DNA of 34,221 nucleotides, taken from contig RZZM01000012.1 of NCBI GenBank assembly GCA_009929845.1, forward strand, positions 1-34,221. The letters run 5' to 3'. A model generated the notes under the pieces. That model worked only from the letters and a program-made list of their open reading frames with translations, ran no database searches and was not told the origin of the DNA. The stretch's first letter is position 1; every line of letters begins with the position of its first letter. Origin of the DNA: Spartobacteria bacterium (GTDB lineage Bacteria > Verrucomicrobiota > Kiritimatiellia > RZYC01). This document shows positions 11,450-34,221 of the stretch, in pieces. The translations under genes and the position numbers were made by a program.

Positions 11450-11545
11450 GGTGCCTGTTTCCTTTCGTCTTTTCGTCAAAAATGTGCCTTTCGTGCGGGG
11501 GAGTCTATCGGTGAAGGGGGAAATGTCAAATCTTGTTGTCGACTT

Positions 11546-13030: not shown

Positions 13031-13932
13031 TTATTGATATCCGGATTTTCCAGCAATGATTTCACGCCCCCGGCAATGGCCGTGCGACGCAGAAAATAGA
13101 ACACCCATATGGCCGGCCACACATGAAGATATTTGCGCCAGGACGGATTCTCGACAAAGACCCGGGTCGCCTGCTGCACGGCCTTGAACGGCGTCCACGC
13201 CAAAAATAACCACGGAAAGCGCCAAAGCTTCTTCCGGGTCTGCCAGTCATAAAAGTCCGGATGGCGCTCAATGAGCGCGACGCCGGCGCGTCCGTAAATG
13301 CCCGCATGACGACAGAGCCATTTAAAGGTCCCCTCGTCGGGCAGATGATCGACGACACTCCGGGGTTCAAAATATATGCGGTGACCAGCCTTCAAGAGCT
13401 TAATGGCCAAATCGTTGTCCTGTCCGCCCCGAAACGTCTCGTCAAACCCACCCAGGTCAAGGAGCACATCCTTCCAAAGCCCCATGTTGCCGCCACCCAC
13501 CCGGTTGTCCACTTCGCCGGCGGGGGTTTCCGGGGAGAGGTTGTGCAAAATGGCCATGTTGTCACCGGTTACCCAGTAGTTGGTCTTCGGGAAATCAAAC
13601 GCGCCGCCAACCATCTTGTACCCCTCGTCCAACCGCTTGCCCATCACCTCAATCCAATCGGCATTGCATCGGCAGTCCGCGTCGGTGAACAACAAAAAAC
13701 GCCCCTGCGACTCCCGTATGCCGATATTGCGGTTCGCCCCCGCGGAAAGCGGCGTCTCCGTCTCAATAAAACGGATGTCATCGCGCTGCTGACACAAGCC
13801 GCTGTCATCACGTCCAATCACAATGACCTCATAGGCATAGTCGGTCTGCTGGGCCGCCAAACTATCCAATGTCGTTGTTATCAACGACGAATTGACATTT
13901 GGGATAATGACCGAAATATCAATGGTTTTCAT
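13027..13932 (-). CDS. Glycosyltransferase family 2
   Basis: ISVIIPNVNSSLITTTLDSLAAQ, GANRNIGIRESQGRFLLFTDADCR, GGFDETFRGGQDNDLAIKLLKAGHRI. Confidence 0.92.
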   Translation of the reverse strand: MKTIDISVIIPNVNSSLITTTLDSLAAQQTDYAYEVIVIGRDDSGLCQQRDDIRFIETETPLSAGANRNIGIRESQGRFLLFTDADCRCNADWIEVMGKRLDEGYKMVGGAFDFPKTNYWVTGDNMAILHNLSPETPAGEVDNRVGGGNMGLWKDVLLDLGGFDETFRGGQDNDLAIKLLKAGHRIYFEPRSVVDHLPDEGTFKWLCRHAGIYGRAGVALIERHPDFYDWQTRKKLWRFPWLFLAWTPFKAVQQATRVFVENPSWRKYLHVWPAIWVFYFLRRTAIAGGVKSLLENPDINK

Positions 13933-14038
13933 ATAAATAATCCTCTAAAAAATGCTTTTTTGATGTCGAAGGCTACTCTATGCCACGATTTTTTCCGTTT
14001 GTCTCTAAAAATCGGAAACCCGCAACCCTTCGCCTATC

Positions 14039-16024
14039 CTAATCGCACTCTTTCCGCACCGGATGGAGCCACCAGGTGACGCCGAGATGAACATCATTTT
14101 CACATCGGGGGCAGTAGCCTTCTTCGTAGACGATGTAGTCCATGTGGTCAGGAAAGGGTTGCTGACGGATCAGGTATGGGATCAGGGGAATGACGCGGCG
14201 TGTCATACCGGGACCGAAAAACGGATATTCGTACCGGTCGACCGGGGCGACCAGCCCCACCGTGGCGTCCGGGGGGACAAGGGTTTCATAGGCGCGCAGG
14301 GCGTCAAGTTCCCAGGGACGATTGCTCATCAGTTGCGCGTGGCGGTCCTGCGAAAATACCGACCGGCTTTTGTAAGCGGGCCAGTCCACGGTGATCAAGG
14401 CGCGCTGGTCCCGAAAGGTTACGGCGCTCAGCGCGGTGATGATGGCCACCCACACCACCACCTGCAGGTAGAGATAGACCCAACGTTTCCGGGTGGTCAT
14501 GAGATATCCGGCCAGCGGGGCGCCGAATGCCGCCGCGGCAGTGAAATACCTTCCACGCCAGGGATCATAGGGCCCGATATAGCCTTGCAGCGCCCAGAAC
14601 ATGAAAAAGCCGATCGATAACCAACGCATATCCCATCCGGGAAGGATGAACAGCACGCTCAACAACGCTACCATCCAAATGAACGCGAAGCCTGTGATGC
14701 CCCAATACGAGCTGTCTTCGTGCGGTCGGAGCGGTCGCAGGTATGCAAACGGGGCCCGGCACTCCTGTGTGTCTTCCAGGTCAAGTCCCGTGGAGGCCAT
14801 GACGGCCCCGATCAGCCTGCGCGATGCGTTTCTGCATTTCAGTACGGGCGTCGCCGGGGGCAGGGATTCAAGGGAAGCGGCATCCACGCCGAAGCGCAGC
14901 ACATTCTTTGTGCCGAATTTCAGCCGGTGCGAAAGGGTTCCTCCTTCAAAAGAATGGGCGGCGCGTACATCCTCCGGTCCTACCGGGTGCCCGTACAAAC
15001 GGATATTGGCGATGTACCCCGACGGCGCGGTCCAGAGCAGCAGGGCTCCCAACAGCATACCGGCAAACACCACCAGGACGCGAACACGTTCGGCCACGGC
15101 GACGCCTTCCCGGGCAAGAACAACATATACAAAAATCAGACCCAACGCGGGGCCCACCAACAGAAAGGAGACCTTGGTTCCCAACCCCAGTCCAATGGCC
15201 ATGGCCGCCAGCCAGAGATAGCGCCTGGAAGGGATCGTCTTGAAACGAAACAGCGCGTACACCGCGCAGCAGGCCAGGGCGGCAAGGAGCAGATCATTCT
15301 GCGTGGTGGTGGCCTGCATAAGCGCGGAGATGAACAGTCCGAAACAACCCGCGGCGAACAAACCGGCGGCGTCTTTTTTGAATACCTCCCGGGCAATGCC
15401 GAACAGCGCCACCACGCAGGTCCAGTACGCCACAAACTGCGGGGCCTGCATCCAGTTTTCCCGGCATCCGGAAGCCAGCCAGGAAAAAATCAGCATCACC
15501 GCGCTGTTCCGCGGATGGGCGACCTGGGCCCAGTAGTTGGCGTCGTAATGCGCCAGGGACCCCTGCTGCAAAAAGTAGGCGACACGGGCAAGATGATAGG
15601 TCATGCTGTCCCAGTTATGCGGCGCGCAACGCAACACGATCAACCCGTTAATAATCCCCAGGCCAAACACCGTTGCCCAGAGCGGCGCGAGCAACCCGCA
15701 TTCGCGGCGCGTCAGGCCGCGGCATAACTCGACCATCCGACGAAAAAACCAGGGCGGCGAGGGCCATTGCCACATCCGCGCGCGGGCCCGCGTACTGAAG
15801 AAGGCCACCACAAGCAGGACGACCAGCAAGACCCCTTCCAGGACAATCCAGCACCCCATCTGATCAAGCCGGTTCAGCCAGGAGCAAAGATACCCGACCA
15901 ACACAACGTGCCCCATCGCCATCACCGGCAGGCAGACGGCCTTGTCCAATCCGCGTGTGGGAAAGAGCAGCGCGGCCAGCCACCAGGTATTCACGGCACA
16001 CAGAATCAGCAGGAGCCAGTTCAC
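14039..16024 (-). CDS. Polytopic GT-C/GT39-like membrane protein
   Basis: Multiple TM segments; HNWDSMTYHLARVAYFLQQGSLAHYDANYWAQVAHPRNS. GTG start (VNWLLLIL) forms a 4-nt GTGA overlap with the GT4 stop; the longer ATG ORF to 16123 is less likely. Confidence 0.75.
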   Translation of the reverse strand: MNWLLLILCAVNTWWLAALLFPTRGLDKAVCLPVMAMGHVVLVGYLCSWLNRLDQMGCWIVLEGVLLVVLLVVAFFSTRARARMWQWPSPPWFFRRMVELCRGLTRRECGLLAPLWATVFGLGIINGLIVLRCAPHNWDSMTYHLARVAYFLQQGSLAHYDANYWAQVAHPRNSAVMLIFSWLASGCRENWMQAPQFVAYWTCVVALFGIAREVFKKDAAGLFAAGCFGLFISALMQATTTQNDLLLAALACCAVYALFRFKTIPSRRYLWLAAMAIGLGLGTKVSFLLVGPALGLIFVYVVLAREGVAVAERVRVLVVFAGMLLGALLLWTAPSGYIANIRLYGHPVGPEDVRAAHSFEGGTLSHRLKFGTKNVLRFGVDAASLESLPPATPVLKCRNASRRLIGAVMASTGLDLEDTQECRAPFAYLRPLRPHEDSSYWGITGFAFIWMVALLSVLFILPGWDMRWLSIGFFMFWALQGYIGPYDPWRGRYFTAAAAFGAPLAGYLMTTRKRWVYLYLQVVVWVAIITALSAVTFRDQRALITVDWPAYKSRSVFSQDRHAQLMSNRPWELDALRAYETLVPPDATVGLVAPVDRYEYPFFGPGMTRRVIPLIPYLIRQQPFPDHMDYIVYEEGYCPRCENDVHLGVTWWLHPVRKECD

Positions 16025-17313
16025 CGCACCGGGTCCTCGTCGGGCCGCACCAGCCCCCGGTACTTCAGACGCAACAGTCGGCTGTGCATCCATAAGGGGT
16101 CCAACCATCGCAAGGCCCCCCACCCTCGGGAAACTGATGGGGACGCCCCGCCGGAACCAGCGGCTCGCTTTGTAACGCTTTCATAGAAGGACAACAACCG
16201 GCGCGTGTTGCTCTCGGCGTCAAAATGCGCCTGGGCGAAAGCGGCCGCGGCGGCGCCCATCCGCGCGGCTTTGTCCGGGTTCATGAAAAGTTCGATACAG
16301 CGCCGCGCGATTTCCTCGGAGGTTCCCTCCCGCAGCAACAGGACGTCCCGGTCATCCTCCAGCAGGTCGGCGATGTTGGCGTCAGGAATAATCACCGGAC
16401 GACCCGCGGCCAGAAACTGCGGAATCTTTGAGGGCAACCGGTAGCGGTTGAACATGTCCAGCCGCCCCGGTTGCACCAGCACATCCGCCAGGGCCATCAG
16501 GCGCGGCACCATATCCTTGTCCACATAACCCGCCACATGGACATACCGCCGCAGCGAGGGGTCCACCTGCCCGATGAATTCATCCGCGTGCGGACCGGTC
16601 TGGATAAGGTGACAGACCAGGCCCTGCCGGTTAATCATCGGCAAGGCCTGGAAAAGGAGCAACAGGTCATCCCTGTTCATACTATTGACGCCACCGGGAT
16701 AGTAAATCAGCCTCGCGTTTTCCGGGATATCAAACATCCGGCGCAAGGCGGGATCGGGGGGCATGGGACGGAACATTCGTACATCCACACCGGGGAGCAC
16801 GGACTGCACAGGAATGCCCTCCGGCACGAAATCCGCCAGCGAAGGCGTGATCACCGTCACCCCGTCGGCCTGCCCCAGGAACGCCGCTCCATGATGCGGA
16901 TGCATGCAGTGCGGCGGAACCAGATAGGCGCATTCGCGCGGCGAACAACCGAGCAGTTGCCGGTAAGGCACGCCCGCGGTGCGCGCGGTGATCCATTGTT
17001 CGTTGTCCTCAAGATGCAGCACCAGGCGGGCGTCGGGATAACGCCGTAACGCAGGCAGCACGGCCCGCCGAACGCATTCTCGCGGGGTCCACGCGTGAAT
17101 AATATCCGGCGACGCGTCTTCTCCGAAGAGCGGAAGGCCGTTGATTACGTGGTCGTACCCGACAAGACGCAGCGAGACACCACGCCCCGATTCTTCTTCC
17201 GGCAGCGCAACCGTACAGGAATGGCCCAACGCTTCAAGCGCGCCCGCGAAGCCGAAGATATGCTCGATGCTGTTGGAACGGAGTCCGCCATAATTCACAA
17301 ACAGGATATTCAT
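16021..17313 (-). CDS. Glycosyltransferase family 4 (GT-B fold)
   Basis: MNILFVNYGGLRSNSIEHIFGFAGALEALGHSCTVALP, IYYPGGVNSMNRDDLLLLFQALP, DVLVQPGRLDMFNRYRLPSKIPQFLAAGRPVII. ATGA overlap with the upstream gene. Confidence 0.9.
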   Translation of the reverse strand: MNILFVNYGGLRSNSIEHIFGFAGALEALGHSCTVALPEEESGRGVSLRLVGYDHVINGLPLFGEDASPDIIHAWTPRECVRRAVLPALRRYPDARLVLHLEDNEQWITARTAGVPYRQLLGCSPRECAYLVPPHCMHPHHGAAFLGQADGVTVITPSLADFVPEGIPVQSVLPGVDVRMFRPMPPDPALRRMFDIPENARLIYYPGGVNSMNRDDLLLLFQALPMINRQGLVCHLIQTGPHADEFIGQVDPSLRRYVHVAGYVDKDMVPRLMALADVLVQPGRLDMFNRYRLPSKIPQFLAAGRPVIIPDANIADLLEDDRDVLLLREGTSEEIARRCIELFMNPDKAARMGAAAAAFAQAHFDAESNTRRLLSFYESVTKRAAGSGGASPSVSRGWGALRWLDPLWMHSRLLRLKYRGLVRPDEDPVR

Positions 17314-19034
17314 TCGCGTCGCTCCCACAGCCCGCAGGTAACGGCGCGGTCCGCGCTCAATGGCCGATAACGCAACCGCCCCTGTTCGTGCTCCAACGCC
17401 CGACTGTAATACGGGTCGCGCCCTTCCGGCAACATCGCAAGCGTGTCCGCCTCCACGTCAAGGACCGCGCGCTGCCCTTTCGTCTCCACCGCCTCGCAAT
17501 CCGGCAGCAAGACATGCCGATACCCCTGCGCCAGGGCCCGCAGACAAAAATCCGTTTCACACGATAGGCGCGCCGCGCGCATGCCCCCCAGCGCCTCGAA
17601 CACCGACTTTTTGAGCATCATCCAGCCCAGGGGCAGGACGCCGACATTCTGCGTCAGGCGCAACCGGTTAAAATAGCCGGGGGCCTGTTCCGGCAGACCA
17701 TGATACGCCAGACGCATCCGGTGCTGTTCATCAATCAGCCCCCCATAGGCATGGATGTGTCGGTCCTGGGTCAGGAGTCGTCCGCCCACCCCAGCGACAC
17801 CGTCAAGCTGTGCAACCCCCAACATACGCTGCGCCCAGCCCTTTGTCCGTAAATGAACAGACGCCGCCGTCAGCGCCAGATAGTCCCCCTTCGCCATGGC
17901 CACCGCCTGGTTGATGGCCGACGCCGGGGAATCCGTCGCCGACACCGCGCACACGCGCACATCCTCCGGCGGGGCCTCGCCGTCGGACGGGGCAATGACG
18001 ATATATTCCACGTTCGCGTAGGCCACACTGTCCCGCGCCGCGCGCAGGCAGGCCTCGCATTCACGGCGCGTCGCGGACGATAGAACAATCACGGACATCA
18101 ATGGTGTATTTTCTACATCGTAACGCACCTGGTAGTGATTCGGCAGACCGGCGCCGTCAACGGTGGCGGCCTGCCCCCGGCGCTTCAGGGCTTCCTCGAC
18201 CGCGCGGCGCCCGGCGTCATCGGTCTGCGCAGCGCCCGCGGCCCGGCGGCTGACGGATGTCGGGACATACCGCCAGTGATAGAGCACTTTGCGCAGATGA
18301 CCGATGCGCTTCGCCGCTTCGGTCAGTCGCAAGGCCAGGTCGTAATCCTGCGCCCCGTCGAATTCCGGACGCAGCCCCCCGACCTGCTCGATCAGCGACG
18401 CGCGCGCGAAGAGCGGATGGGTGATGTAGTTATGCGAGAGCAACAGTTCGGGCGAAAAATCCGGCTTGAAATGCCCATGCAGGAAACGCCCCTCGCAGGT
18501 AACGGTGTCCTCGTCGGCATACAGCACATCCGGGTCATGCACCATGATGGCCTTGACCGCCTCGAACAGCGCATCCGGGGTCAGCTCGTCATCATGATCG
18601 AGCAAAGTGATGTACTCGCCGGTCGCCAGGCCCCGCGCCCTTTCTGTCGCCCCGGAAATCCCAAGGTTGGTTTCCAGACGCTCAAAGCGCACGCGCTTGT
18701 CGTTCAACCCCTCGACAAAAGTTCGAACCTCGTCCGATGGAGAACAATCATCCACGATACAGAGTTGCCAGGCCGGATAGAGCTGGTCCTGGACCGACCG
18801 CACCGCCCGCTTCAGCCAACCCGCGTCGCCCGCATGAACCGGCAGCAAAATCGAGATTACCGGGTGCGCGGGAAACTGGTGAATCGTCTGTCGAATCGCC
18901 TCCCGGTCCAACCGGTCATCATAGACATAGCGATAACCCTGAAGGTAGTCCTGCAGCCTCGACCAGCCATACGACCAGCCCATCTCGCGCGCGTCGGCCC
19001 GCCATGCGCCCAGCCGCTTGCGCAACAACACCAT
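17310..19034 (-). CDS. Glycosyltransferase family 2, apparently tandem GT2-like domains
   Basis: ISILLPVHAGDAGWLKRAVRSVQDQLYPAWQLCIVDDCS, EYITLLDHDDELTPDALFEAV, PDVLYADED, second domain PLMSVIVLSSATRRECEACLRAARDS. Start ambiguous: ATG at 19034 or TTG at 19070. Confidence 0.88.
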   Translation of the reverse strand: MVLLRKRLGAWRADAREMGWSYGWSRLQDYLQGYRYVYDDRLDREAIRQTIHQFPAHPVISILLPVHAGDAGWLKRAVRSVQDQLYPAWQLCIVDDCSPSDEVRTFVEGLNDKRVRFERLETNLGISGATERARGLATGEYITLLDHDDELTPDALFEAVKAIMVHDPDVLYADEDTVTCEGRFLHGHFKPDFSPELLLSHNYITHPLFARASLIEQVGGLRPEFDGAQDYDLALRLTEAAKRIGHLRKVLYHWRYVPTSVSRRAAGAAQTDDAGRRAVEEALKRRGQAATVDGAGLPNHYQVRYDVENTPLMSVIVLSSATRRECEACLRAARDSVAYANVEYIVIAPSDGEAPPEDVRVCAVSATDSPASAINQAVAMAKGDYLALTAASVHLRTKGWAQRMLGVAQLDGVAGVGGRLLTQDRHIHAYGGLIDEQHRMRLAYHGLPEQAPGYFNRLRLTQNVGVLPLGWMMLKKSVFEALGGMRAARLSCETDFCLRALAQGYRHVLLPDCEAVETKGQRAVLDVEADTLAMLPEGRDPYYSRALEHEQGRLRYRPLSADRAVTCGLWERRE

Positions 19035-19064
19035 ATCCTTGAAAAAAGCGATACAACACTCCTT

Positions 19065-19257
19065 TTCCAACCATTGGAAACTTTTTTAGCGTTTTTTCCA
19101 ACCATTGGAAAATTCTTAGTCATTTTTTCCAATCATTGGAAACTTTTTCGCCGTTTTTTCCAATCATTGGAAACTTTTCAGCGGTTTTTTCCAATCATTG
19201 GAAACTTTTCAGCGGTTTTTTCCAATCATTGGAAACTTTTTCCAATGATTGGAAAAA
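19065..19257. repeat. Array of seven TTCCAAYNATTGGAA palindromes at 31-bp spacing (the last at 20 bp)
   Basis: 15-bp cores start at 19065, 19096, 19127, 19158, 19189, 19220 and 19240. Linkers are (A)ACTTTT(C)AGCGGTTTTT-like. The last unit is the perfect 21-nt palindrome TTTTTCCAATGATTGGAAAAA (19237-19257). Confidence 0.97.
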
Positions 19258-19955: not shown

Positions 19956-21908
19956 TCAGTCAAACCAGGAATTGGGCAACATGGGGAAAGTTCCTTGGTG
20001 TTCCGTATTATTGGCGGCGTCCGCCCCGGTCCCCATACCGGCCTGCGTCCACCCCGGGCCTGGCCCGCCCATATTGTTGATTGTCCCATAGACAATATTG
20101 TTGGCGTAAAACTGCGCATGTCCGGAAGTACCCACATCGCCTTGCACGGTGTTCTGCACAAAGCAGATGGTCGGGCCGGTGCCGCCGGCCAGGGGGTCCA
20201 CAACAGCGGACAGTCCCATGCCGGCCTCGGGTCCCTTGATATAGTTGTGCGTATAGAGGTGGACCGGCATAATTGGGCCGGGTTCAGCATCTTCGATAGC
20301 GGCATAGCCTCCGATGTTGGCCACTTCGCAGTAGGTCAGCTCGAAGGGGGTTACGCCCAGGTTGACCTGCAACGCGGCCATGGTGGCGGAGTTGTTGAAG
20401 ATGGAGGAATTATAGATGGCGATACTCTGGATATTGTTGATGCCGTCGCCAACCACCAGCCCATTACCGTCCATAGCTTCCGCATAGCAGTCCTGCACTT
20501 CCACCCGAGGGCCAAAGATATGCAGCGCACCGGCGAAGCGTGAATTATGGAACTTCACATCGCTGCCCAGGTCCGCGGCCACAATGGCAAGCCCCAGCAC
20601 AACGATATTTTCCACGCGCTGTTTTCCAGAAATATTTTTAGCGCCGCCCGCGACCTGCAACAGGCCCAGTTGCGGCCGTCCGAACCCGAGCACGTGCACG
20701 CTGCCCTTATTCATATTGAGGCCGCCGTAATTCCCGGAACAAATGACGACCGTGGAGGGCCCATTGGTATACTTCAGCGCCGCCAGGTCATAACCTGATT
20801 GCGGGTCGGGCAAGGGATCATCCACCGTCCCGCGGGCATTGAGTTTGCCGTTGGTGGCCACCCAGACGATGCAGTCGAGTTCGACGGGCAGATTGGTCAG
20901 GCCATGGCCGTCGCCGAAATACCTGCCGTTATGGATGGCATTATAGGCCATGTCAATATCCCCGCCCATCGTGAACCCGACGGCCTGGTTATTGGTCCAG
21001 ACCGGATCAGACTCCACATACACCGGCGTGCCGGTCGAGTAATCGGACATATCCGAACCCAGGATCATGGTGCGCGACGTTTCGTCATACATACCGGTGA
21101 CCACGCCGGACACGGACAGGTTGGTCGCGCCGGTGTCGACCGTCCAGGCCGCCGGGGCATTGGTCATGGTGGACAGGTCAAGTCCCGCGGCGTAGTCGGC
21201 GGTCCAGACCGGGTCCGACTCGACATACACCGGCGAGCCGGTGGCCAGGACGCCATTCGCCAGGTCGTTGGTATAGATCGGGTCCTGCTCGACAAAGACC
21301 GTGGCCGCGTTTGTCCAGGCCGCTCCGTTAAAGGTGAGCACTTCGCCGGACGCCGGCGCCTGGGCGCCTACATGAATCCCCTGCAGGTCGATAATGCGAT
21401 TATTGTGCGCCGGACCGCGGACATCTCCGCCGAGGGTCACGCTGTTGGTGGCAGCGGAAACCAGATCCGCCGCGTCAAAGCCGTCCAGCAAATCCGCATT
21501 GATCGCATACGGGGAGCTGACCAGTTTCTGGGAAGGAAGCATTTCATTGAAGGTGACATCATCGGTACTGAACCAGACACGCAGGTACAGATCATTGCCG
21601 TTGTTGAAAATATCCTTGTCGATCGGATTCATGGTCGCGTCGCCCAGCGTAAAACTGAAGACGCCGTTGTAGACCGAACCGGTAATGGAGGACGCCGGTT
21701 CCAGGGACACGGAACCGTCATTGGACCAGTAGTTGGTGGTGCTCAGCTCATCGGCGATGGCCACCTTGAAATACCCCGGCCCCGTAAACGGCAGGTCACT
21801 GATCAGCACCTTGCCCTGGTAGTCGAGTTCGGTAACGGGGTCCGCCCCGACCGACAGCACACATGCCAGACACACGCACGCAAAACAGAAAAATACCCTG
21901 ACGTTCAT
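19956..21908 (-). CDS. Secreted repeat/beta-helix-like hypothetical protein
   Basis: Start at MNVRVFFCFACVCLACVLSVGA (signal peptide; AGGAGG RBS). ESDPVWT repeats in the middle. C-terminal region has turn-rich repetitive segments (NIVVLGLAIVAADLGSDVKFHNSRFAGALHIFGPRVEVQDCYAEAM) like right-handed parallel beta-helix proteins. Confidence 0.7.
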   Translation of the reverse strand: MNVRVFFCFACVCLACVLSVGADPVTELDYQGKVLISDLPFTGPGYFKVAIADELSTTNYWSNDGSVSLEPASSITGSVYNGVFSFTLGDATMNPIDKDIFNNGNDLYLRVWFSTDDVTFNEMLPSQKLVSSPYAINADLLDGFDAADLVSAATNSVTLGGDVRGPAHNNRIIDLQGIHVGAQAPASGEVLTFNGAAWTNAATVFVEQDPIYTNDLANGVLATGSPVYVESDPVWTADYAAGLDLSTMTNAPAAWTVDTGATNLSVSGVVTGMYDETSRTMILGSDMSDYSTGTPVYVESDPVWTNNQAVGFTMGGDIDMAYNAIHNGRYFGDGHGLTNLPVELDCIVWVATNGKLNARGTVDDPLPDPQSGYDLAALKYTNGPSTVVICSGNYGGLNMNKGSVHVLGFGRPQLGLLQVAGGAKNISGKQRVENIVVLGLAIVAADLGSDVKFHNSRFAGALHIFGPRVEVQDCYAEAMDGNGLVVGDGINNIQSIAIYNSSIFNNSATMAALQVNLGVTPFELTYCEVANIGGYAAIEDAEPGPIMPVHLYTHNYIKGPEAGMGLSAVVDPLAGGTGPTICFVQNTVQGDVGTSGHAQFYANNIVYGTINNMGGPGPGWTQAGMGTGADAANNTEHQGTFPMLPNSWFD

Positions 21909-22045
21909 TCCTTGCCTCCTATCGTAGACTAACTCATTCATCTCTCGTACACATTTCATCGCGGCCCGATTAACCGCGCACATGATGATTCCAACATATA
22001 CATAAATAATGTCAATAAATATCACCCCAAAAAGACGCGGGTCGC

Positions 22046-22300
22046 TTAGTAATGATATCGTGCCTGTGCAATAAGCAGAGAATTGCCTTCAATAGAATAA
22101 ACGAGACGATGTTCATCTGTGATCCTTCTTGACCAATAACCGGATAAGTCATGTCTAAGAGGCTCTGGTTTTCCAATACCGTCAAAAGGATCCCTTTTTA
22201 TATCTTTGATTAGCAGAAGAATGCGTTTTGCAATTTTTCTGTCATTTGCAACCCAGTATGATACGTCTTCCCATCCTTGATCGGAGAATATAATTTTCAC
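22046..22300 (-). CDS. yoeB: YoeB/Txe family mRNA interferase toxin
   Basis: [68 protein letters not shown]...ARYHY, a classic YoeB sequence. Confidence 0.95.
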
Positions 22301-22554
22301 ATTAACTCCGGTAACGGTCGCTCAATACCTGCACCAGACCGCAACTGTTCAATAGAAAGTCGGAGACGTTTTGCATTCTTTGGACTTCGTAAAAGGTATG
22401 CGGTCTCTTCAAGTGCTTCATAATCATCTAACGACATCATGACAACAGCCTGATTACGATTACGCGTTATAATGACGGGATCGCGGTCGTCGCACACATG
22501 TTGCATAGTATTAGCGAGATTCTGTCTTGCTGTAGTATATGTTATAGCTTTCAT
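22297..22554 (-). CDS. yefM: YefM/Phd family antitoxin
   Basis: [64 protein letters not shown]. 4-nt ATGA overlap with yoeB. Confidence 0.95.
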
Positions 22555-23780: not shown

Positions 23781-24365
23781 CTACTCTCTTACATCAATAA
23801 TGTCACCGTTAAAAATCTCCAAGGCCCTGCGGACGGCTGGATTTTTCTGCCAAGTTTTCTTTACTTGGGCTGAAAAACTGGATTTTCCGGTCAACACAGG
23901 GATAATTTTGTCGTCTGCCGCGGGATTTTTCACTTCCTGGACCATTTTTACGTCGCCGGGAAGGGTACTTTTCGCGTCCAGCACACTGAAAACAACGTTC
24001 ACCTGCCTACCTAAAAGATCACTGATGGCTTTTTGCAAGGCCTTTTTGTTGTGCGGGTAGTCAATTTTGTCTTTTTCGTTGGCAAATTCAGGGTCGAACC
24101 CGATCCGCACTTGGTCCGCGTCCACGGCAATAGGTTTGGTATCGAGCAGGTAGCTGCGAGCAAGGTGGGCGGTCTGCCCTACCCGATCAAGGATTTCATG
24201 CCAACGGGTGACGAGCATCTGCAATTCGTCGGCGGGCGGCATGGACGGCTTTTGGGGCGCGGCGTCCGCGGGTCCGGATGCGGGCTCAGGGGATGCAGGG
24301 GGAGCGTCGGGTGGCGTGGATTCAACCGGCGGCGGTGGCTTCGCGTCCGGCGGGGGCGGCGTCAC
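23781..24365 (-). CDS. dnaX: DnaX tau-specific C-terminal region, -1 frame relative to gamma
   Basis: Pro-rich linker (TPPPPDAKPPPPVESTPP), then a tau-like domain (LQMLVTRWHEILDRVGQTAHLARSYLLDTKPIAVDADQVRIGFDPEFANEKDKI...ALQKAISDLLGRQVNVVFSVLD). The nominal GTG overlaps the gamma stop. Confidence 0.8.
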   Translation of the reverse strand: MTPPPPDAKPPPPVESTPPDAPPASPEPASGPADAAPQKPSMPPADELQMLVTRWHEILDRVGQTAHLARSYLLDTKPIAVDADQVRIGFDPEFANEKDKIDYPHNKKALQKAISDLLGRQVNVVFSVLDAKSTLPGDVKMVQEVKNPAADDKIIPVLTGKSSFSAQVKKTWQKNPAVRRALEIFNGDIIDVRE

Positions 24366-25558
24366 GGGTGTTTTTTTTTTACGGACGCGCTGTCCTCGGG
24401 GGCCTGGCCGTCTTCAAACGCCTTTTTGAGGGTTGCAATCTGACCGATGATCTGTTCGACCGAAGCGACGGTGGCGGCGCGGGCGGCCTTGATGACAGCC
24501 ACTTCGAGGAGGGTGCGCTGCGAGAGCGCGTAGCGCATGCGGCTGTCGGCATCGGTCAGGATTTCGATGATGCGGAGCACGCGTTCGGCCTCCGTGGATT
24601 CGGCCTGTTTTTTAAGGACCTCGACCTGGTTGGCGGTGACATCCAGCGAGGACGGGTTGCCCTTGGTATAGATAAGAATCATGATATTGCGGAATGACTC
24701 GATAAGTTCGACATTCAGGCGGGGCAGGTCTTTTCCGGTATCGACCAGGCTGGAGACCGTGGTCAGGGCCTGGGGAACATCACCGGCAAGGATCGCGCTC
24801 ACCAGTTCTTCGAGGGTGCGGCGCGCGACGAGGCCGAAGACCGACATTACGTCCTGCTCCCGGATGGTTTTGCCCTGGAACGCGATCAACTGGTCCATGG
24901 CCGACTGTGCGTCGCGCATGCCGCCCTCGGCGCCGCGAGCGACCGCCAGGAGGGCGTCTTCATCAATATCAATACCCTCCGCCCTGGCGATTTCCGCGAG
25001 GCGGCCCACGATGCGCGCGGCGGCGATCGGCCGCAAATCAAAGCGTTGAACGCGCGAAAGGATGGTGGCCGGGATTTTCTGGGGTTCGGTGGTGGCGAAA
25101 ATGAATTTTACATGGGGCGGGGGCTCTTCAAGGGTCTTGAGCAGGGCATTGAACGCGCCGGCGCTGAGCATGTGAACTTCGTCGATGATATAGACCTTGA
25201 ACGGTCCGCGGGCGGGCGCGTACATGGCATTTTCGCGCAATTCGCGGATGTAATCCACGCCGGTATTGGACGCGGCATCCATTTCGATGACATCGAGGCT
25301 TTTGCCGCTCATGATTTCGCGGCAGGCGTCGCAGGCGTCGCAGGGGGTGGGCGTGGGGCCTTTGACGCAGTTGAGGGCCTTGGCCAGGATGCGGGCCGTA
25401 GTGGTCTTGCCGATGCCCCTGGGGCCGACAAAGAGATAGGCGTGGGCGACCCGTTCCGCTTCGATGGCATTTTTGAGTGTGCGGGTCACATGCTCCTGTC
25501 CGACGACATCGTCGAACTGTTGCGGTCGCCACTTGCGGGCAATCACTTCATAAGCCAT
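24362..25558 (-). CDS. dnaX: DNA polymerase III gamma subunit (N-terminal zero-frame part of DnaX)
   Basis: ARKWRPQQFDDVVGQEHVTRTLKNAI, Walker A GPRGIGKTTTARI, Zn motif CVKGPTPTPCDACDACREI, IDEVHMLSAGAFNALLKTLEEPP. Ends SVKKKHP* right after an A10 run. Confidence 0.96.
   Translation of the reverse strand: MAYEVIARKWRPQQFDDVVGQEHVTRTLKNAIEAERVAHAYLFVGPRGIGKTTTARILAKALNCVKGPTPTPCDACDACREIMSGKSLDVIEMDAASNTGVDYIRELRENAMYAPARGPFKVYIIDEVHMLSAGAFNALLKTLEEPPPHVKFIFATTEPQKIPATILSRVQRFDLRPIAAARIVGRLAEIARAEGIDIDEDALLAVARGAEGGMRDAQSAMDQLIAFQGKTIREQDVMSVFGLVARRTLEELVSAILAGDVPQALTTVSSLVDTGKDLPRLNVELIESFRNIMILIYTKGNPSSLDVTANQVEVLKKQAESTEAERVLRIIEILTDADSRMRYALSQRTLLEVAVIKAARAATVASVEQIIGQIATLKKAFEDGQAPEDSASVKKKHP
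24371..24380 (-). promoter_or_regulatory. Candidate dnaX slippage site (A10 in mRNA sense)
   Basis: Minus strand ...GAGGACAGCGCGTCCGT-AAAAAAAAAA-CACCCGTGA. A -1 shift on the A-run joins gamma to the tau C-terminus (KKKTPVTPPPPDAK...). Confidence 0.7.
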
Positions 25559-25629: not shown

Positions 25630-25932
25630 CCAGCGGTCGTGCACCCTTGGTCGACAGCCCGCCGATCCGTGCGAAATCCGCATCCAAACTCAAGCCAGGT
25701 TGACCTACGGCACCCGAAAAACATGGCTTACCGCTGCTACCTTCCGGTCCTGACGGGGTTCACCCGTCCTCGTTGCATAGGGCCCAACTTTCAACATTCT
25801 TCAACGGCTCGCGCCGGTCCGGCATGCCTGCCTCGCAAGGGAATTCAACCCTGCTACAGCGGGTTGCAGGTCACTCCGGCAAAGCCGAAGCTCAAGGCAC
25901 CGCTACCTCCTCGTCTAGCACGACCGTTCGAC
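25630..25932 (-). ncRNA. ffs: Signal recognition particle RNA, long bacterial form with Alu domain
   Basis: Minus strand S domain GAACCCCGTCAGGACCGGAAGGTAGCAGCGG. 5' Alu domain GTGCTAGACGAGGAGGTAGCGGTGCC...ACCTGCAACCCGCTGTAGCAGGGTTGAATTCCC. Terminal pairing CGGTCGTGC / GCACGACCG. Ends approximate. Confidence 0.93.
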
Positions 25933-25950: not shown

Positions 25951-28152
25951 TCAAAATGGCAAGACGTGAAATAGATTATTCGTGATAAATGATTCGGGCG
26001 CGTTGGGAGGCCGCCATTTGAGCTGCATCACGGCGCCGTAATAGGCGTCAAAATAGCGGACGGTCATGGGATGGTAGCCTTTGGCCAGCCAGACGGTCTG
26101 GCTTTGGCGGCGTTGGGCATGTTCGCCGCCGTTGTCGACCACGAGCCGGTCGCCCAGGTATATCCAGGAGCCGTCATCCGAGATGGTGATAAGGGTATAG
26201 CGTCCCGCTTCGGGGGCATGGAGGAGGCCTTTCCATTCCATGCTCAAGGGGGCCCGGCAGGGTTTAGCGGCCTCGTCGGGCCAGTTGATGTCAATGGTGG
26301 TATCGACCTGATTTCGCAACGAGCGGCCCGCGAAAAATGCGCCCCGGTACAGGTGGCCGACCAACCCGGGAGCGATTTCCTGCCCCGGATGCAGCGCCAG
26401 GGTATTTGTAAAGGTGAAGCGGTCCTGCTGAACTTCGTCGGGGAGCGCGCGATGATAGAGCAGCAGGGGGGCGCCGGGGCGCAGGGTGAAATATTCCTTG
26501 TTGTAGCGGTCTTTCAGGCGCATTTCGACATCATCTTGCTGGTCGGCCTTGGCAAGGATCATGGGGGCGTTGAGGTCATCGATCAACTGGCCATACCACA
26601 ACACACCGGGGTAAAACCGGAAATACCAGGGCAGCGGCCAGTAATCCGGCGTGACGCTGATGATGGGCGTGGAAACGCCATCGTAGGCCTCGGCCAACTC
26701 GAAGATGCGTTCAATCATGCGTACGGCGTCGCGCGTGGTCTGCACGTATACGAGGGATTCGCCGTCGTCGTCATACTGCTCGAAGGACAGCGCATAGGCC
26801 AGCGTCCCCTGGCGTATGCACACCGCCGCCAGCAGCAGGAGCGCCACCGCGCGGAGCGCCCGTTTACGAAAGCGGGACAGGACAATCTCCACAAAGACCC
26901 CGCCCAGCAGGGCAAACGGCAACAGGATATTCAACACCAGCCAGGGGGTTTTGTAGGGGATCAGCGAATACACCAGCAGCAGGGCCAGCGCCCACACGGC
27001 GACAAAACAGGTCACCGAACGCCCGCGGCGGCAGCCGAAGAGTATCCCGCCGATGCCGAAGAGCAGCACAGGCGCTTCGTAGCGCAACATGATTTGCAGG
27101 AAGTAGACAAAGGGTTTGTTGTGCTGCGAGGCCACGGTCCCGGTGGTGAACCACAGTTCAAACGCGCGGAAAAACGCGGCGACGCCCCCACTCCACTGGA
27201 AGAACGTGGTGAACAGCACACTGATGACCAGAAAGAACAGCAGCACGCTGAAGATCACATGGCGCAGGCGTTCGCGCAGCGTGGCAAAGACGGACGCAAA
27301 CAGGATACAGCACATCATGACCACGCCGCCCTTCAGGAGCAGTGATGTGGCCCAGGACTGACGCAACCGCTGTTCCACAAAGGCCGGCGCCACCAGCCAC
27401 GCGACCAGCAGCACCACGGAAATGAGCACGCAGGACAGCGGCGCCGGCAGGATCATGACGCCCCCCACCCGCTTCAGCAGCCTTTGCAGGTCGCGCCGCC
27501 ACGCCGACGGTCCGGCGCGACACAGGTACCCGGACAAACTCACCACCCCCAGCGCCCCGCCCCATGCCGCCACGGTCAGAATCGCCGTTTCCTTGAGCGC
27601 GAACATACCGGCCAGCCCGAGCCCGATGCCATAGAGCCATCCGGCCCGCTTCGTGAGATAGAACCGATACCCCGCCAGGAACGTCAGCAACGTGAAGAAC
27701 AGCAGGTAGATTTCGTGGATATTGTCGCGTGAATAGTAGAGGAAAGCGGGCGAGACCGCCAGAAGCAACATGGCGAAGAGGACCCCGGCCCGGCCCATCC
27801 ATTTGCGAAAGGCCGGGATCAGGAGGATCAGCAGCGCCCCGAACAGGGCCGGCATGACCCGAAACGAAACATCGCCGACCATCGAATCCGGCGCAATGGG
27901 ATAGAGCGAAGACTCCATACCCATCACCGAAAGGGGCATCCAGGTCAAATAGTACAACAACGGCCCATGATAGTTGCAGGGATCATACTGGTAGGTTTGC
28001 CCCTTGAATATCTGCGTCATGAAATGGGTGTTGGCCCCTTCGTCGTGATGCAGCGGACGTCGGCCCAGATCATAGAAACGGGCCGAGGCCGCCAGTAGCA
28101 CGATCAGCAGCAGGGCGAGGCCGTAGAGGATGGAGGTTCGCGTTATCTTCAT
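25951..28152 (-). CDS. Agl23-like (TIGR03663 type) polytopic membrane protein with C-terminal PA14-like domain
   Basis: RFYDLGRRPLHHDEGANTHFMTQIFKGQTYQYDPCNYHGPLLYYLTWM, many TMs. C-terminus EWKGLLHAPEAGRYTLITISDDGSWIYLGDRLVVDNGGEHAQ...VRYFDAYYGAVMQLKW is PA14-like. ATG at 28152 (ATGA overlap). Confidence 0.8.
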   Translation of the reverse strand: MKITRTSILYGLALLLIVLLAASARFYDLGRRPLHHDEGANTHFMTQIFKGQTYQYDPCNYHGPLLYYLTWMPLSVMGMESSLYPIAPDSMVGDVSFRVMPALFGALLILLIPAFRKWMGRAGVLFAMLLLAVSPAFLYYSRDNIHEIYLLFFTLLTFLAGYRFYLTKRAGWLYGIGLGLAGMFALKETAILTVAAWGGALGVVSLSGYLCRAGPSAWRRDLQRLLKRVGGVMILPAPLSCVLISVVLLVAWLVAPAFVEQRLRQSWATSLLLKGGVVMMCCILFASVFATLRERLRHVIFSVLLFFLVISVLFTTFFQWSGGVAAFFRAFELWFTTGTVASQHNKPFVYFLQIMLRYEAPVLLFGIGGILFGCRRGRSVTCFVAVWALALLLVYSLIPYKTPWLVLNILLPFALLGGVFVEIVLSRFRKRALRAVALLLLAAVCIRQGTLAYALSFEQYDDDGESLVYVQTTRDAVRMIERIFELAEAYDGVSTPIISVTPDYWPLPWYFRFYPGVLWYGQLIDDLNAPMILAKADQQDDVEMRLKDRYNKEYFTLRPGAPLLLYHRALPDEVQQDRFTFTNTLALHPGQEIAPGLVGHLYRGAFFAGRSLRNQVDTTIDINWPDEAAKPCRAPLSMEWKGLLHAPEAGRYTLITISDDGSWIYLGDRLVVDNGGEHAQRRQSQTVWLAKGYHPMTVRYFDAYYGAVMQLKWRPPNAPESFITNNLFHVLPF

Positions 28153-30389
28153 TGGTTCACCGCCGGGGCCGCCGGCGCGTCGGGAAACGGCATTCGCCGA
28201 TAGATACTGACCCCGGACGCGCTGTATACGCAATCCATGATCTCCTCAAACTTCCGCAACCCATGGTCGGCGTACTCCTCGCGTTCGGGCGGGCCGATGA
28301 CCACATATTCGACATTATACACATCCATGAGCTGAAGGGCGCGGTCGGCGGCGGTCGTACGGTAGATTTGATCCATATCATTGCGTCGCTTCAATACCTC
28401 CTCGTAGGAATCGCGCCAGCCCGCCTCGTGATTGAACCAGCCCATAACACCCGGCAGTCCGGTGAAGGTGGAAATCCTTCCATTCCAGCAGTAGGCATAG
28501 CCTGGCGCCTCCAGCACCACCGGACGTCCGGTAATGTGCGTATTCATCCAGTCGATCGCCCGACAGTCGGCGGGATGCAGAACACGGTTGAAGGCCATAC
28601 CATCAAGTGTAAAGCGCTGCGCGAACCCGCGGGTCCGGGCCCAGGTGCCCGCCACGGGATACACCAGCCCCGCCAAGAGCAGGAGGAACAACGCGACCCG
28701 GAAACCCCACCTCGCGTACCAATGCGGGGAGCGCTTCAGGGTCTCCCCGATCAGATAGATCGTAAACACGCCGCCCATCGCCCAGATAAACCAGATTTGC
28801 AGGTAAACCTTGAAGACCGTATTCTGCCGTTCCAGCAACCCGGTGTACAAATCATTCACATACAGGAATTCACAGACCAGCGCGTAAAGCCACGGAAGCG
28901 CTGTCATCGCGATCACAAAAAATGAAATCGACGATGGCGCCGACCAGGAAGCGGATTTCTCGTCCGACGCCTTTCGCGACCATACCTCGTCAAAGAGTAC
29001 CCAGAGTGTTCCCGCCGCCAAACAGGCCAGGGCCACAAAATAGAGGTAGGCGGTCTGTCGGAACAGGCTGATGGCGGTGACAAACACGAACATGATCAAC
29101 ACCGATTTTCCCTGTCGTTTGGACGTCGAGGGCGTGCGCACGACAACCATCAGCCAATAGACCAGGATCGGCAGGATAAACAGCCCGAAGAGCTGAAGGA
29201 AATCTGTAAACAGGGAACGGCCCTCGGATACCAGCCGAATGGAACGGTGTTGCTGAAAGACGCGCAGATACGGAAAATAGGCGAATATCCCCGCCATGAA
29301 ATAAACGGCCGCGAGCCCCAGGGACGACAGCAGCCTTCTGACACGCCGGCCGGTCGGCGCGAACAGCGGGCCGACGCACATGGCCAGCAGCAGCACCACG
29401 AAATACGCGGGATAATCCCAGGTATTGACCGCGATGAGCGACCCGCCGAGGATCGCCCACAGCACGACCTGCAAGAGCCGGTTCGCGCGCGGACGGGGGC
29501 CGCCCGAACCGTCCGGCGGCGCACACTCGAACAGGTGATTGAGCGCAAAGGCAAAGACAATGAAGACGATGGGGAACGCCAGCATATACGGATGCAGATC
29601 ACCCCACAGAAAACTGAACCAGGGAAATTCATTGATCGTACCGGGGATGACGCGCGAACAGCCGAACCAGTCCAGCGCCGCAAACGGCGTTCCTGACGTG
29701 AGCTGGACCAGGGCGTTGATATTCCCGAAAAACAAGACCATGCCGACCGCCAACGCGCCGTAGCGATGGCGGCGCGTGAAATTATAGCCGCACCCGTAGG
29801 CCCCGATGAGTACCAGCGCGTAGATGAGCGCCACCGCCCCGTTGAAAAAATAAGGCAGCGCCAGGCCGGTCACCTTCTGCAGAATACCGACGATGACATA
29901 GCCGAAATAATAATAGTTCACAAAAAAACCCGAAAGCCAGATATCCTGCTGCGGGAACGACGAGGTCTTGAGCACCCCCTGCAGCATGGCCATATCCATC
30001 ATACGTTCGCTGTCGGGATCAATCGCGCCGTTAAAGCCGGTCAGCCAGAGAAAAACCCCCAACCCGACAAAAAACAGTGTCTCGACAGCAAACAGGTAGC
30101 GCCCGTTCTCGCGAACATACCGGCGCAGCGCCGTCCATTGGCGGGAGGCGATGGCCAGGTTGGCCGCCAGGAAAAGTAACATCACGCCACCGATCAGCCA
30201 CGTTCCGAACGACACGCCCAGGTGCGCCGCCAGCCAACTGAGGTAGGCCACCAGAATCATTCCGCCATAGCGCGCGACCGAATAGCCCCGGTCCGGCAGC
30301 CTGTGGAATGTCACGAAAAAAAGCGGGAACCCCACCACTCCGATCAGCGTGGCGGAAAGCCACATCAGACTGTAAACGATAAAAAACAT
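28149..30389 (-). CDS. DUF2298 / Chlor_Arch_YYY (TIGR03662 type) membrane protein
   Basis: 746 aa polytopic protein; NYYYFGYVIVGILQKVTGL contains the YYYxG signature. DPDSERMMDMAMLQGVLKTSSFPQQDIWLSGFFVNYYYFG. Confidence 0.8.
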   Translation of the reverse strand: MFFIVYSLMWLSATLIGVVGFPLFFVTFHRLPDRGYSVARYGGMILVAYLSWLAAHLGVSFGTWLIGGVMLLFLAANLAIASRQWTALRRYVRENGRYLFAVETLFFVGLGVFLWLTGFNGAIDPDSERMMDMAMLQGVLKTSSFPQQDIWLSGFFVNYYYFGYVIVGILQKVTGLALPYFFNGAVALIYALVLIGAYGCGYNFTRRHRYGALAVGMVLFFGNINALVQLTSGTPFAALDWFGCSRVIPGTINEFPWFSFLWGDLHPYMLAFPIVFIVFAFALNHLFECAPPDGSGGPRPRANRLLQVVLWAILGGSLIAVNTWDYPAYFVVLLLAMCVGPLFAPTGRRVRRLLSSLGLAAVYFMAGIFAYFPYLRVFQQHRSIRLVSEGRSLFTDFLQLFGLFILPILVYWLMVVVRTPSTSKRQGKSVLIMFVFVTAISLFRQTAYLYFVALACLAAGTLWVLFDEVWSRKASDEKSASWSAPSSISFFVIAMTALPWLYALVCEFLYVNDLYTGLLERQNTVFKVYLQIWFIWAMGGVFTIYLIGETLKRSPHWYARWGFRVALFLLLLAGLVYPVAGTWARTRGFAQRFTLDGMAFNRVLHPADCRAIDWMNTHITGRPVVLEAPGYAYCWNGRISTFTGLPGVMGWFNHEAGWRDSYEEVLKRRNDMDQIYRTTAADRALQLMDVYNVEYVVIGPPEREEYADHGLRKFEEIMDCVYSASGVSIYRRMPFPDAPAAPAVNQ

Positions 30390-30396
30390 GAAGCCC

Positions 30397-31560
30397 TCAT
30401 CCAGTATGAACGGTCAGGTTATGGGGCGAGAGTTTCATGTTGTCAACCAGGGTATCCACAACGGTTTCAGCCGCATGCGGGAAAGCCAGTTCCAGCGCCG
30501 ACATTTTCATGGCGGCCATCCGCGGTTCGTCCTGCAGCAGCTTGTCGACCTTGTAGGGAAGGGTCAGGATTTCGCTGCATTTGATGGCCGCGCCGAACTC
30601 CAGGAGATGATCGCTGTTGTGCTCTTCCTGTCCGGGAATCGGCTGATAAATGGCCATGGGCAGTCCACTGGTCATGGCCTCGGCGGTGGTCAGGCCGCCC
30701 GGTTTTCCGATAAACAGATCGGCCATGGCCATCCACTCATGCATCGCCTCGGTATAGCCCTCGATGCGGTATATCGGGTAGTCGCATGCGCTCTTGTCCA
30801 CAAACGTCTGTAAGCGTTCACGCAGCTCAGTGTTCTGTCCGCAGACCACCGCAACCGTCACTTTGGTCTGAAGGCGTTTCATCATCCGCACGACATCCTC
30901 GGCGGAATCGAGTCCGAAGGCGCCCGCGGAAACAAGGATCAGCGGCAGGTCCGGACGGATACCGTAGGCCGCGCGCAGCGCGGCCGGATCATGTGTTTCG
31001 GTAAAGACCGGATCAATGGGAATCCCCGAGACCGTGACCCGTTCCCCTGGAAAGCCCAGCATTTCGAGGTGCGCGCGCGACTCCTCGTGGGCCACGAAAT
31101 AGCGATGAAAGATACGGGAGAGCCACATCGCGTGCACATAGAAATCGGTAACCACAATGGCCAGTCGCGTATCCACCAGGCCTTTGCTGATGATGTGCGA
31201 GATGATCTCCGCCGGCAGGAAATGGGTACAGACCGCGATATCGGGTTTTTCATCGGTGATGCGTTTCACGAGGTCCTGCAGATTCAGCTTATCAAGCATC
31301 AGACGCATTTTATCGCTCTTCCACGGCTCGTTACTGGTCTCGTACCACATGCCCCACAGGTCCGGCGTACGGGTCACCATCTGCTCATACATTCCGCTGT
31401 AAAACTCCCGAAAGATGGCATTGGTATAGTCCAGCGCGTCAATATTGATCACTTCGCCGACCCGCGGATGCCGCGCGGCCACCTTGGCGACCGCCTCCGC
31501 CGCGCGCGTGTGCCCGCTGCCCGACGTCGCATGCAATATCATCATTTTCGACACACTCAT
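30397..31560 (-). CDS. MGDG synthase/processive diacylglycerol glucosyltransferase-like GT-B
   Basis: MMILHATSGSGHTRAAEAVAKV (MGDG_synth N-domain), KPDIAVCTHFLPAEIIS, VVTDFYVHAMWLSRIFHRYFVAHEESR, FIGKPGGLTTAEAMTSGLPM. Start at MSVSKMM. Confidence 0.88.
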   Translation of the reverse strand: MSVSKMMILHATSGSGHTRAAEAVAKVAARHPRVGEVINIDALDYTNAIFREFYSGMYEQMVTRTPDLWGMWYETSNEPWKSDKMRLMLDKLNLQDLVKRITDEKPDIAVCTHFLPAEIISHIISKGLVDTRLAIVVTDFYVHAMWLSRIFHRYFVAHEESRAHLEMLGFPGERVTVSGIPIDPVFTETHDPAALRAAYGIRPDLPLILVSAGAFGLDSAEDVVRMMKRLQTKVTVAVVCGQNTELRERLQTFVDKSACDYPIYRIEGYTEAMHEWMAMADLFIGKPGGLTTAEAMTSGLPMAIYQPIPGQEEHNSDHLLEFGAAIKCSEILTLPYKVDKLLQDEPRMAAMKMSALELAFPHAAETVVDTLVDNMKLSPHNLTVHTG

Positions 31561-31946: not shown

Positions 31947-32132
31947 AGAATGCGGGGACAGAGACGGTGTAAATTTCCATTTTTTGGCATGAAAATGACA
32001 AAGAACAGGGAAATAGCGACGCTTCCCACAAAAAAGTCGGAACGAAAACTTGTACAAGCGAGGGTGACTTTGCTAAGCAGTTGCCTTCAAATATGCATGA
32101 CCGCTAAACGAAGGTATTGAAAGGAAACAACC

Positions 32133-33773
32133 ATGGCAATCAGTCCCCTGGCAGGCAAGCAGGCGCCCAACGAACAGTTGTCGGATATTCCGAAGCTGCT
32201 TGAGCTGTATGCGCGTAACAAACCGGACCTCAGCCATCCGGAACAACAGGTAACGTTCGGCACCTCCGGGCACCGCGGCACGTCCCTGAACAGCACCTTC
32301 ACGGAAACACACATCATGGCCATTACCCAGGCTATCTGTGACTACCGGGCGCAAGCCGGTATCACCGGCCCCCTGTTCCTCGGCAAGGATACCCACGCGC
32401 TCTCCACCCCGGCCACCCGCACCGCCCTGCAGGTCCTGGCGGCCAACGGTGTCATGACGATGATTGACCAGGATGACGGCTTCACCCCCACCCCGGTCAT
32501 CTCGCATGCCATCCTGACCTATAATGATGGACGCGCGGACGGCCTGGCCGACGGCATTGTGGTCACCCCATCGCATAATCCACCGGATAATGGCGGCTTC
32601 AAGTACAATCCATCCAACGGCGGGCCGGCGGACACCGACATCACCGGATGGGTCGCCAAACGCGCCAACGCCCTGATTGCCGACGGCAACACCGGGGTCC
32701 AATGCATGGCCTATGAAGACGCCCTCAACGCGAAAACCACCGTCCGTTACGATTACATCACCCCGTATGTGAACGACCTGGAGAACGTGATCGACCTCGC
32801 CGCCGTAAGCAAGGCGGGGATCAAGATATGCGCCGACGCGCTGGGCGGCTCGGGGCTGGCCTACTGGCGCCCCATTGCCGAACGTTACAACCTGGATATC
32901 ACCATCCGAAACGCCGTGCCCGACCCGACCTTCAGCTTTATGACCGTCGACCGGGACGGAAAAATTCGCATGGACTGCTCGTCCCCCTATGCCATGGCCG
33001 GGCTCATTGACCTGAAAGATGAGTTTGATATCGCCTTCGGCAACGATCCCGATTTTGACCGCCACGGCATTGTCACCAGAAGCGCCGGGCTGATGAACCC
33101 GAATCACTATCTCGCGGTGGCGATCCACTACCTTTTCAGCAATCGCGCCGGTTGGCGCCAGAACGCCGCCGTGGGCAAAACCCTGGTCAGTTCCTCGATG
33201 ATCGACCGGGTGGCCGGCGACCTCGGGCGCGCCCTGTGCGAAGTGCCGGTGGGATTCAAATGGTTTGTCAGCGGCCTGGAGGACGGCTCGTACGGCTTCG
33301 GCGGGGAAGAGAGCGCAGGCGCATCCTTCCTGCGCAAGAACGGAAAGGTCTGGAGCACCGACAAGGACGGCATCATCATGGCGCTGCTCGCCTGTGAAAT
33401 CCTCGCGGTCACAGGCAGGGACCCGGGCGAGCATTACACCGCCCTGACCGAAAAATTCGGCGCGCCGGTATATGCCCGCATGGATGCCCCGGCCAACCGG
33501 GAGGAAAAGGCCCGCCTGGCGGCGCTCTCCCCCGAGCAGGTCACCGCCGAACAGATGGCCGGGGAACCCATCACCGCCAAACTGACCCACGCCCCCGCCA
33601 ATGGCGCGCCCATAGGCGGCCTGAAGGTCTGCACGGAAAACGGCTGGTTTGCCGCGCGCCCGTCCGGCACCGAGGATATTTACAAGATTTATGCCGAGAG
33701 TTTCAAGGGCGAGGCCCACCTCGAACAAATCCAGACCGAAGCCCGTAACATCGTACAGGCCGCGCTGGCATAA
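32133..33773 (+). CDS. pgm: Phosphoglucomutase, alpha-D-glucose phosphate-specific
   Basis: [84 protein letters not shown]. Confidence 0.96.
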
Positions 33774-33825
33774 CATCAGGACCGCGCCGCCGACGGCGTC
33801 GCGGAGGTCAAAAGGAGTTTCGGAC

Positions 33826-34221
33826 GTGAAGTATATCAATCGCGCAAAAGAAGTGATTCAAATCGAGATCGACGCCCTGCAGTCCGTCAGCGCCAACCTG
33901 AACGGCGGGTTCAGCGATGCCGTCCGGTTGATCCTGGAAACCCTGGGCAAAGGCGGGAAAGTGGTCGTCACCGGCATGGGGAAGAGCCTGCACATCGGGC
34001 AGAAAATCGCGTCGACGATGACCAGCACCGGCACCCCGGCCACCGTGTTGCACCCCTCCGAGGCCATGCACGGCGACTTGGGAATACTGCGCGCAAACGA
34101 CATTTTGCTGGCCCTGAGCTACAGCGGAGAATCGGATGAACTGATCGCGCTGCTCCCGATCATCAAGCGGCGCAACATCCCGGTGATTGCGGTGACCGGC
34201 AATCCGGACTCGTCCCTGGCC
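33826..34221 (+). CDS. kdsD: KpsF/GutQ family arabinose-5-phosphate isomerase, truncated by the window end
   Basis: GTG start after AAAGGAG. My translation includes GKVVVTGMGKSLHIGQKIASTMTSTGTPATVLHPSEAMHGDLGIL...LSYSGESDELIALLPIIKRRNIPVIAVTGNPDSSLA. Confidence 0.93.
   Translation, partial: MKYINRAKEVIQIEIDALQSVSANLNGGFSDAVRLILETLGKGGKVVVTGMGKSLHIGQKIASTMTSTGTPATVLHPSEAMHGDLGILRANDILLALSYSGESDELIALLPIIKRRNIPVIAVTGNPDSSLA

Follow-up and report, generated by a model that had tools for sequence, protein, structure and literature searches.

The window, a 34,221-nucleotide stretch on contig RZZM01000012.1 of a Spartobacteria bacterium, appears to carry a two-gene core, yyy-agl23. We read its products as two GT-C-type, lipid-phosphate-sugar-dependent glycosyltransferases that act outside the cytoplasm and probably cooperate, with the glycosyltransferase (GT) encoded next to them not a dedicated component; we put the probability of this reading at roughly 0.6. 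The YYY and Agl23 families, their pairing and PA14-tailed examples are already visible in public data. What we consider useful here is that both membrane proteins can be placed among GT-C enzymes with candidate residues named, that PA14 and NHL tails are exchanged, and that the GT drops out of the system first proposed.

Locus layout and family assignments

Three co-directional genes encode a UgtP/MGDG-synthase-like GT, a YYY protein and an Agl23-like protein (Table 1). The sequence-only reading had described a three-gene layout with a 7-nt spacing followed by an ATGA overlap, and the sequence confirmed both, the 7 nt lying between GT and yyy. A phosphoglucomutase/phosphomannomutase gene lies upstream of GT in divergent orientation, so the candidate operon consists of exactly GT, YYY and Agl23. 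A minus-strand open reading frame (32073-33839) was rejected as the upstream gene; it had no family matches, and the phosphoglucomutase/phosphomannomutase is encoded on the opposite strand. Long opposite-strand frames over the three genes themselves (for example 26071-27345, plus) look like antisense artefacts. Beyond the SRP RNA, downstream, come dnaX, ybaB and recR and then a YefM-YoeB pair.

Table 1 Features of the window around yyy-agl23.
Feature	Position	Strand	Description
GT, UgtP/MGDG-synthase-like glycosyltransferase	31560-30397	minus	ATG at 31560, stop at 30397, 387 aa; PF06925 and GT28 C-terminal domain
YYY protein (TIGR03662/DUF2298, PF10060)	30389-28149	minus	746 aa; predicted membrane protein, modelled GT-C fold
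Agl23-like protein (TIGR03663; PMT_2)	28152-25951	minus	733 aa; modelled GT-C fold, HHDEG loop
PA14 domain, C-terminal in Agl23-like protein	26370-25993	minus	residues 595-720
ATGA overlap, yyy stop/agl23 start	28149-28152	minus	seen in the sequence
Phosphoglucomutase/phosphomannomutase gene	32133-33773	plus	upstream of GT, divergent
Large bacterial SRP RNA (RF01854)	25923-25637		downstream of agl23
Polysaccharide cluster	9.7-19.1 kb of window		further downstream

Profile searches upheld the earlier family assignments for all three proteins, with both membrane proteins well above their curated cut-offs and all matches much stronger than chance would give. YYY scored 466.7 bits against TIGR03662 (cut-off 300.25; model positions 7-725 of 727) and 287.3 bits, above the gathering score, against the Pfam family PF10060 (DUF2298). 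The Agl23-like protein scored 243 bits against TIGR03663 (cut-off 126.25; model positions 3-428 of 435) and 38.1 bits, also above the gathering score, against Pfam PMT_2. Its PA14 tail, noticed in the sequence-only reading, matched the Pfam model at 62.6 bits (gathering cut-off 24). The GT reached 91.4 bits against MGDG_synth, and its GT28 C-terminal domain likewise scored above the Pfam gathering score. It has the same domain architecture as UgtP (processive diacylglycerol glucosyltransferase) and MGDG synthase, with PDB matches 9wde and 4wyi, but unlike a UgtP-type equivalog it falls below the NCBIfam cut-off for diglucosyl-DAG synthase (NF010135; 215.4 versus 500 bits) and is classed as a PF06925 member only. 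Searching the whole host genome gave one TIGR03662 and one TIGR03663 match above cut-off, and PF06925 matched a further gene, on a different contig. Both membrane-protein families also gave control matches in Haloferax volcanii.

Pairing of YYY with Agl23 and possible origin of the pair

We scanned a YYY alignment over 84,980 species, each represented by a single genome, which yielded 572 confirmed relatives, and kept the best 80 loci. An adjacent Agl23-like gene (same strand, no more than 400 nt away) or a fusion in which YYY follows a PMT_2-type half was present in 66 of these best 80 of 572 loci, as counted with profiles that were iterated from the window proteins and whose fused half reaches beyond TIGR03663 proper. 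Adjacent genes accounted for 30 of the 80 and fusions for 52; Pfam finds PMT_2 and DUF2298 within one protein at locus L025. The remaining 14 loci of the best 80, some of them on incomplete contigs, had neither kind of partner. Overlaps of 1 or 4 nt between the YYY and Agl23 genes also occur at L037, L038, L041, L047, L074, L108, L112 and L116. The co-occurrence of TIGR03662 and TIGR03663 stated in the sequence-only reading is thus borne out: the pairing is recurrent across several phyla and often overlapping.

Pairs in Chloroflexota contain the same two families, usually adjacent and often overlapping, but differ in that they often have PMT_2-YYY fusions together with several Agl23-like genes. 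PMC8756737 lists DUF2298 and PMT2/PA14 genes side by side in Chloroflexi bacterium 44-23. As an aside, the PMT_2-YYY fusions of many Chloroflexota would echo a two-headed arrangement of the kind considered further below.

In the host phylum YYY is rare (12 of 388 genomes). The window YYY grouped with that of Candidatus Coatesbacteria L037 (QMNL01000102.1) at an SH-aLRT value of 99 in a quick tree that has SH-aLRT support only and some long branches, and that gives neither the direction nor the source of a transfer. The L037 locus shares gene order, ATGA overlap and PA14 tail with the window, and its Agl23 is 34% identical to the window protein over nearly the whole length, including the tail. 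The copies from G001 and G002, genomes that belong to the same family as the window, sit elsewhere in the YYY tree. Their Agl23 proteins match the window Agl23 at only 26-29%; by contrast, the dnaX genes of G001 and the window share 84% identity over the part present. We rejected the window pair as an ortholog of the same-family copies, as the YYY tree joins it to Coatesbacteria. That the pair is not closest to the copies of its own family suggests, from sequence comparison, a separate acquisition.

The C-terminal tails of the long Agl23 relatives examined are mostly NHL propellers, in contrast to the PA14 domain of the window protein. NHL matches were found in 10 of 14 such tails, a set that includes G001, and PA14 matches in two (the window and L037); the G002 protein ends in NHL repeats. 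An SDDGS sequence, containing a DDG stretch, is common to the PA14 tails of the window and L037.

The neighbouring glycosyltransferase

The sequence-only reading had suggested that the GT could belong to a three-gene system that builds a glycolipid, flips it and transfers or anchors the sugar. In such a dedicated system the GT would make an inner-leaflet glycolipid, and YYY and Agl23 would move it and extend it or transfer sugar outside. Close spacing on a single strand in the host genome, the lipid-glycosyltransferase type of the GT and the phosphoglucomutase/phosphomannomutase gene divergent just upstream all speak for this reading, but comparison with other genomes makes it improbable. When a profile of 23 GT relatives was run over the open reading frames of 92 YYY neighbourhoods (12 from relatives plus the best 80 of 572), some on contigs that end close to YYY, it found no GT homologue even at E<=1; none of the 92 held the linked triple, whose absence from other genomes the sequence-only reading had named as a refutation of its proposal. 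At L037, the closest pair, a peptidase M19 gene is upstream where the window has the GT.

GT homologues also occur away from YYY. Of 57 relatives, 20 carry PF06925, and YYY is absent from most of these; contexts vary, with a GH1 glycosidase as neighbour in three genomes. In the same-family genome G002 the GT is one gene from recR with neither YYY nor Agl23 nearby, and the YYY-Agl23 pair is on a different contig with a tRNA-Ser just 5' of it; the 375 nt visible 5' of that pair hold no GT.

A role for the GT as a conserved or dedicated partner of YYY and Agl23 is accordingly not supported by these sequence comparisons, and the GT-YYY-Agl23 triple looks lineage-specific. In the host genome itself the GT is probably co-transcribed with yyy; the 7-nt gap makes co-expression probable and a shared function with the pair possible there. 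A three-step pathway should not be built on the gene order of one genome.

We also considered a chance neighbourhood, with unrelated membrane proteins lying beside housekeeping genes (the SRP RNA and dnaX). Seven dnaX neighbourhoods fetched from relatives contained no YYY, Agl23 or GT, so the whole block is local, in line with this reading. For the three genes together this explanation is highly improbable, and for the pair it is already refuted: yyy-agl23 recurs in several phyla with overlaps, so chance can account for no more than the GT and the place of the block. For the GT linkage it is the likeliest reading.

GT-C likeness of the two membrane proteins

Searching PDB sequences with a YYY profile gave chance matches only, and we therefore turned to structure. 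The YYY model was confident (pLDDT 90.6, pTM 0.93), and all eight of its PDB matches at E<=0.001 in Foldseek were GT-C enzymes: the C-mannosyltransferase DPY19, the arabinosyltransferase AftA and the oligosaccharyltransferases (OSTs) AglB and PglB, each at probability 1.00 with moderate TM-scores of 0.3-0.57. Tyrosines of the YYYxG motif, seen as NYYYFG (residues 158-163) as the sequence-only reading had it, were conserved in 51-55 of 55 aligned homologues (Y159 54/55, Y160 55/55, Y161 51/55). E128 was kept in 54 of 55, and D149 and H266 in all 55. Judged by where basic residues fall in the loops, together with the model helices, the loop carrying E128 and D149 lies outside the membrane. With its modelled fold and acidic E128 and D149 in the first GT-C loop, YYY is thus predicted to be a GT-C protein. 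Literature searches found no biochemistry for any YYY protein and nothing under TIGR03662, TIGR03663, Chlor_Arch_YYY or the Agl23 product name; in the library searched, DUF2298 was named only in an annotation list and a database paper.

For Agl23 a sequence route was available. Its profile matched ArnT (5ezm) with an E value of 3.9e-8 over 17-451, and the HHDEG loop (D37 E38) aligned to PDEG of ArnT, DE on DE. The protein also carries H62-G63-P64, R98 and R142, fitting the TIGR03663 family description (a conserved DE, HGP and two arginines). E38 was conserved in 35 of 36 homologues, and R98 and R142 in all 36. All 28 Foldseek matches at E<=0.001 were GT-C enzymes or OST-containing translocon entries; they included ALG12, ALG9, ArnT, PMT4 and OSTs, with probability 1.00 to ALG12, OST, ArnT and PMT4. 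The model, with a pLDDT of only 73.5, was weaker than that of YYY, and its PA14 tail was poorly modelled; the predicted fold and the DE in the first extracytoplasmic loop nonetheless place Agl23 in the GT-C superfamily.

What both proteins have in common with ArnT, PMT, OST and DPY19 is the fold class and the acidic first loop; identity to these enzymes in structural alignments is only about 10-15%, TM-scores are moderate overall (about 0.4-0.6), and YYY has extra N-terminal helices. The conserved acidic, arginine and histidine residues of Agl23 and YYY fit catalysis, as judged from the alignments. Because both membrane proteins look like GT-C enzymes, we favour two transferases over the earlier "build, flip, anchor" proposal.

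We keep flipping by Agl23 as an alternative because one archaeal Agl23 is reported to carry a lipid-linked oligosaccharide across liposome membranes (PMC11182771). On this view Agl23 would flip or scramble polyprenyl-phosphate sugars or oligosaccharides linked to lipid, and YYY would be a transferase that uses the flipped donor. The Haloarcula hispanica protein was reported to suppress a yeast rft1 deletion and to move M5GN2-PP-lipid in proteoliposomes (PMC11182771); flipping is the only Agl23 activity that we found reported, and the same paper gives a putative role in the use of hexose-P-dolichol outside the cell. TIGR03663 is named after Agl23 in NCBIfam, and YYY resembles a transferase, as this alternative has it. 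We nevertheless regard it as rather unlikely. The archaeal protein is likened to the window protein, and placed in TIGR03663, by the family name only; catalysis is the easier explanation of a GT-C fold with a conserved acidic loop aligned to the ArnT DE; and loss of a transferase could equally leave lipid-linked sugar unused. The GT-C placement and the named candidate catalytic residues make flippase versus transferase a directly testable question for Agl23.

In the two-transferase reading that we prefer, YYY and Agl23 would act together at the outer surface of the cytoplasmic membrane, perhaps as a heteromer, and each would take a polyprenyl-phosphate-sugar as donor. An acidic residue of the first extracytoplasmic loop (E128/D149 in YYY, D37-E38 in Agl23) may assist the reaction, and a glycan, glycolipid or glycoprotein outside the cytoplasm would receive the sugar. 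The PA14 tail, where many relatives have an NHL propeller, would lie outside and may hold the acceptor glycan. The GT would be a cytosolic UgtP/MGDG-synthase-type enzyme, glycosylating a lipid at the inner leaflet. YYY and Agl23 perhaps form a complex, of which adjacency and distant fusions are not proof.

A more tentative extension, which we think doubtful, is an obligate two-headed transferase with two distinct GT-C sites and interchangeable PA14 and NHL tails, in which the archaeal Agl23 "flippase" phenotype would reflect blocked transfer.

The neighbourhoods of other YYY genes may hold a further link to lipid-phosphate sugars. A Methanosarcina locus has a protein with GT2 and LPG_synthase_TM domains beside YYY, and LPG_synthase_TM occurs in other loci, including Chloroflexota ones. 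The fused GT2 and LPG_synthase_TM form presumably resembles the dolichol-phosphate-mannose synthase AglD, and these neighbouring genes are consistent with a polyprenyl-phosphate-sugar pathway.

Genes accompanying YYY/Agl23 and the glycosyltransferase

A gene resembling FAD amine oxidoreductases was repeatedly found near the genes for the membrane proteins YYY and Agl23 in other genomes (loci L038, L039, L050, L071, L082, L049 and L099), all from Chloroflexota or Methanosarcina hosts, and was often accompanied there by an LPG_synthase_TM gene. In three genomes of class relatives (L178, L179 and L181), a GH1-like glycosidase gene adjoins that of the PF06925 glycosyltransferase, an arrangement confirmed by Pfam for L178; the two enzymes possibly form a functional pair of their own.

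A split dnaX

In the window, dnaX is interrupted at an A10 run (CGTAAAAAAAAAACACCCGTGA) and read as two frames that overlap; relatives with a complete gene carry a single frame of 466–602 aa. Programmed slippage yields the tau and gamma forms from Thermus dnaX, and the split seen here may likewise reflect programmed slippage giving both forms, or it may be a sequencing error.

Other features of the window

The polysaccharide cluster encodes a deacetylase, a methyltransferase, a Wzx-like flippase, two GT2 and one GT4 glycosyltransferases and a PMT_2 membrane protein. Pfam and NCBIfam searches returned no matches for the 689-aa protein, which, judging by its sequence, looks secreted.

Further features of the window
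Feature	Position	Strand	Match
Polysaccharide cluster	9678-19070	-	
689-aa protein	19956-22025	-	
YefM-YoeB type II toxin-antitoxin pair, flanked by recR and the 689-aa gene	22046-22554	-	
dnaX, second frame, overlapping the first	23781-24365	-	
dnaX, first frame	24362-25558	-	
Large bacterial SRP RNA, between agl23 and dnaX	25637-25923	-	RF01854, 141.6 bits
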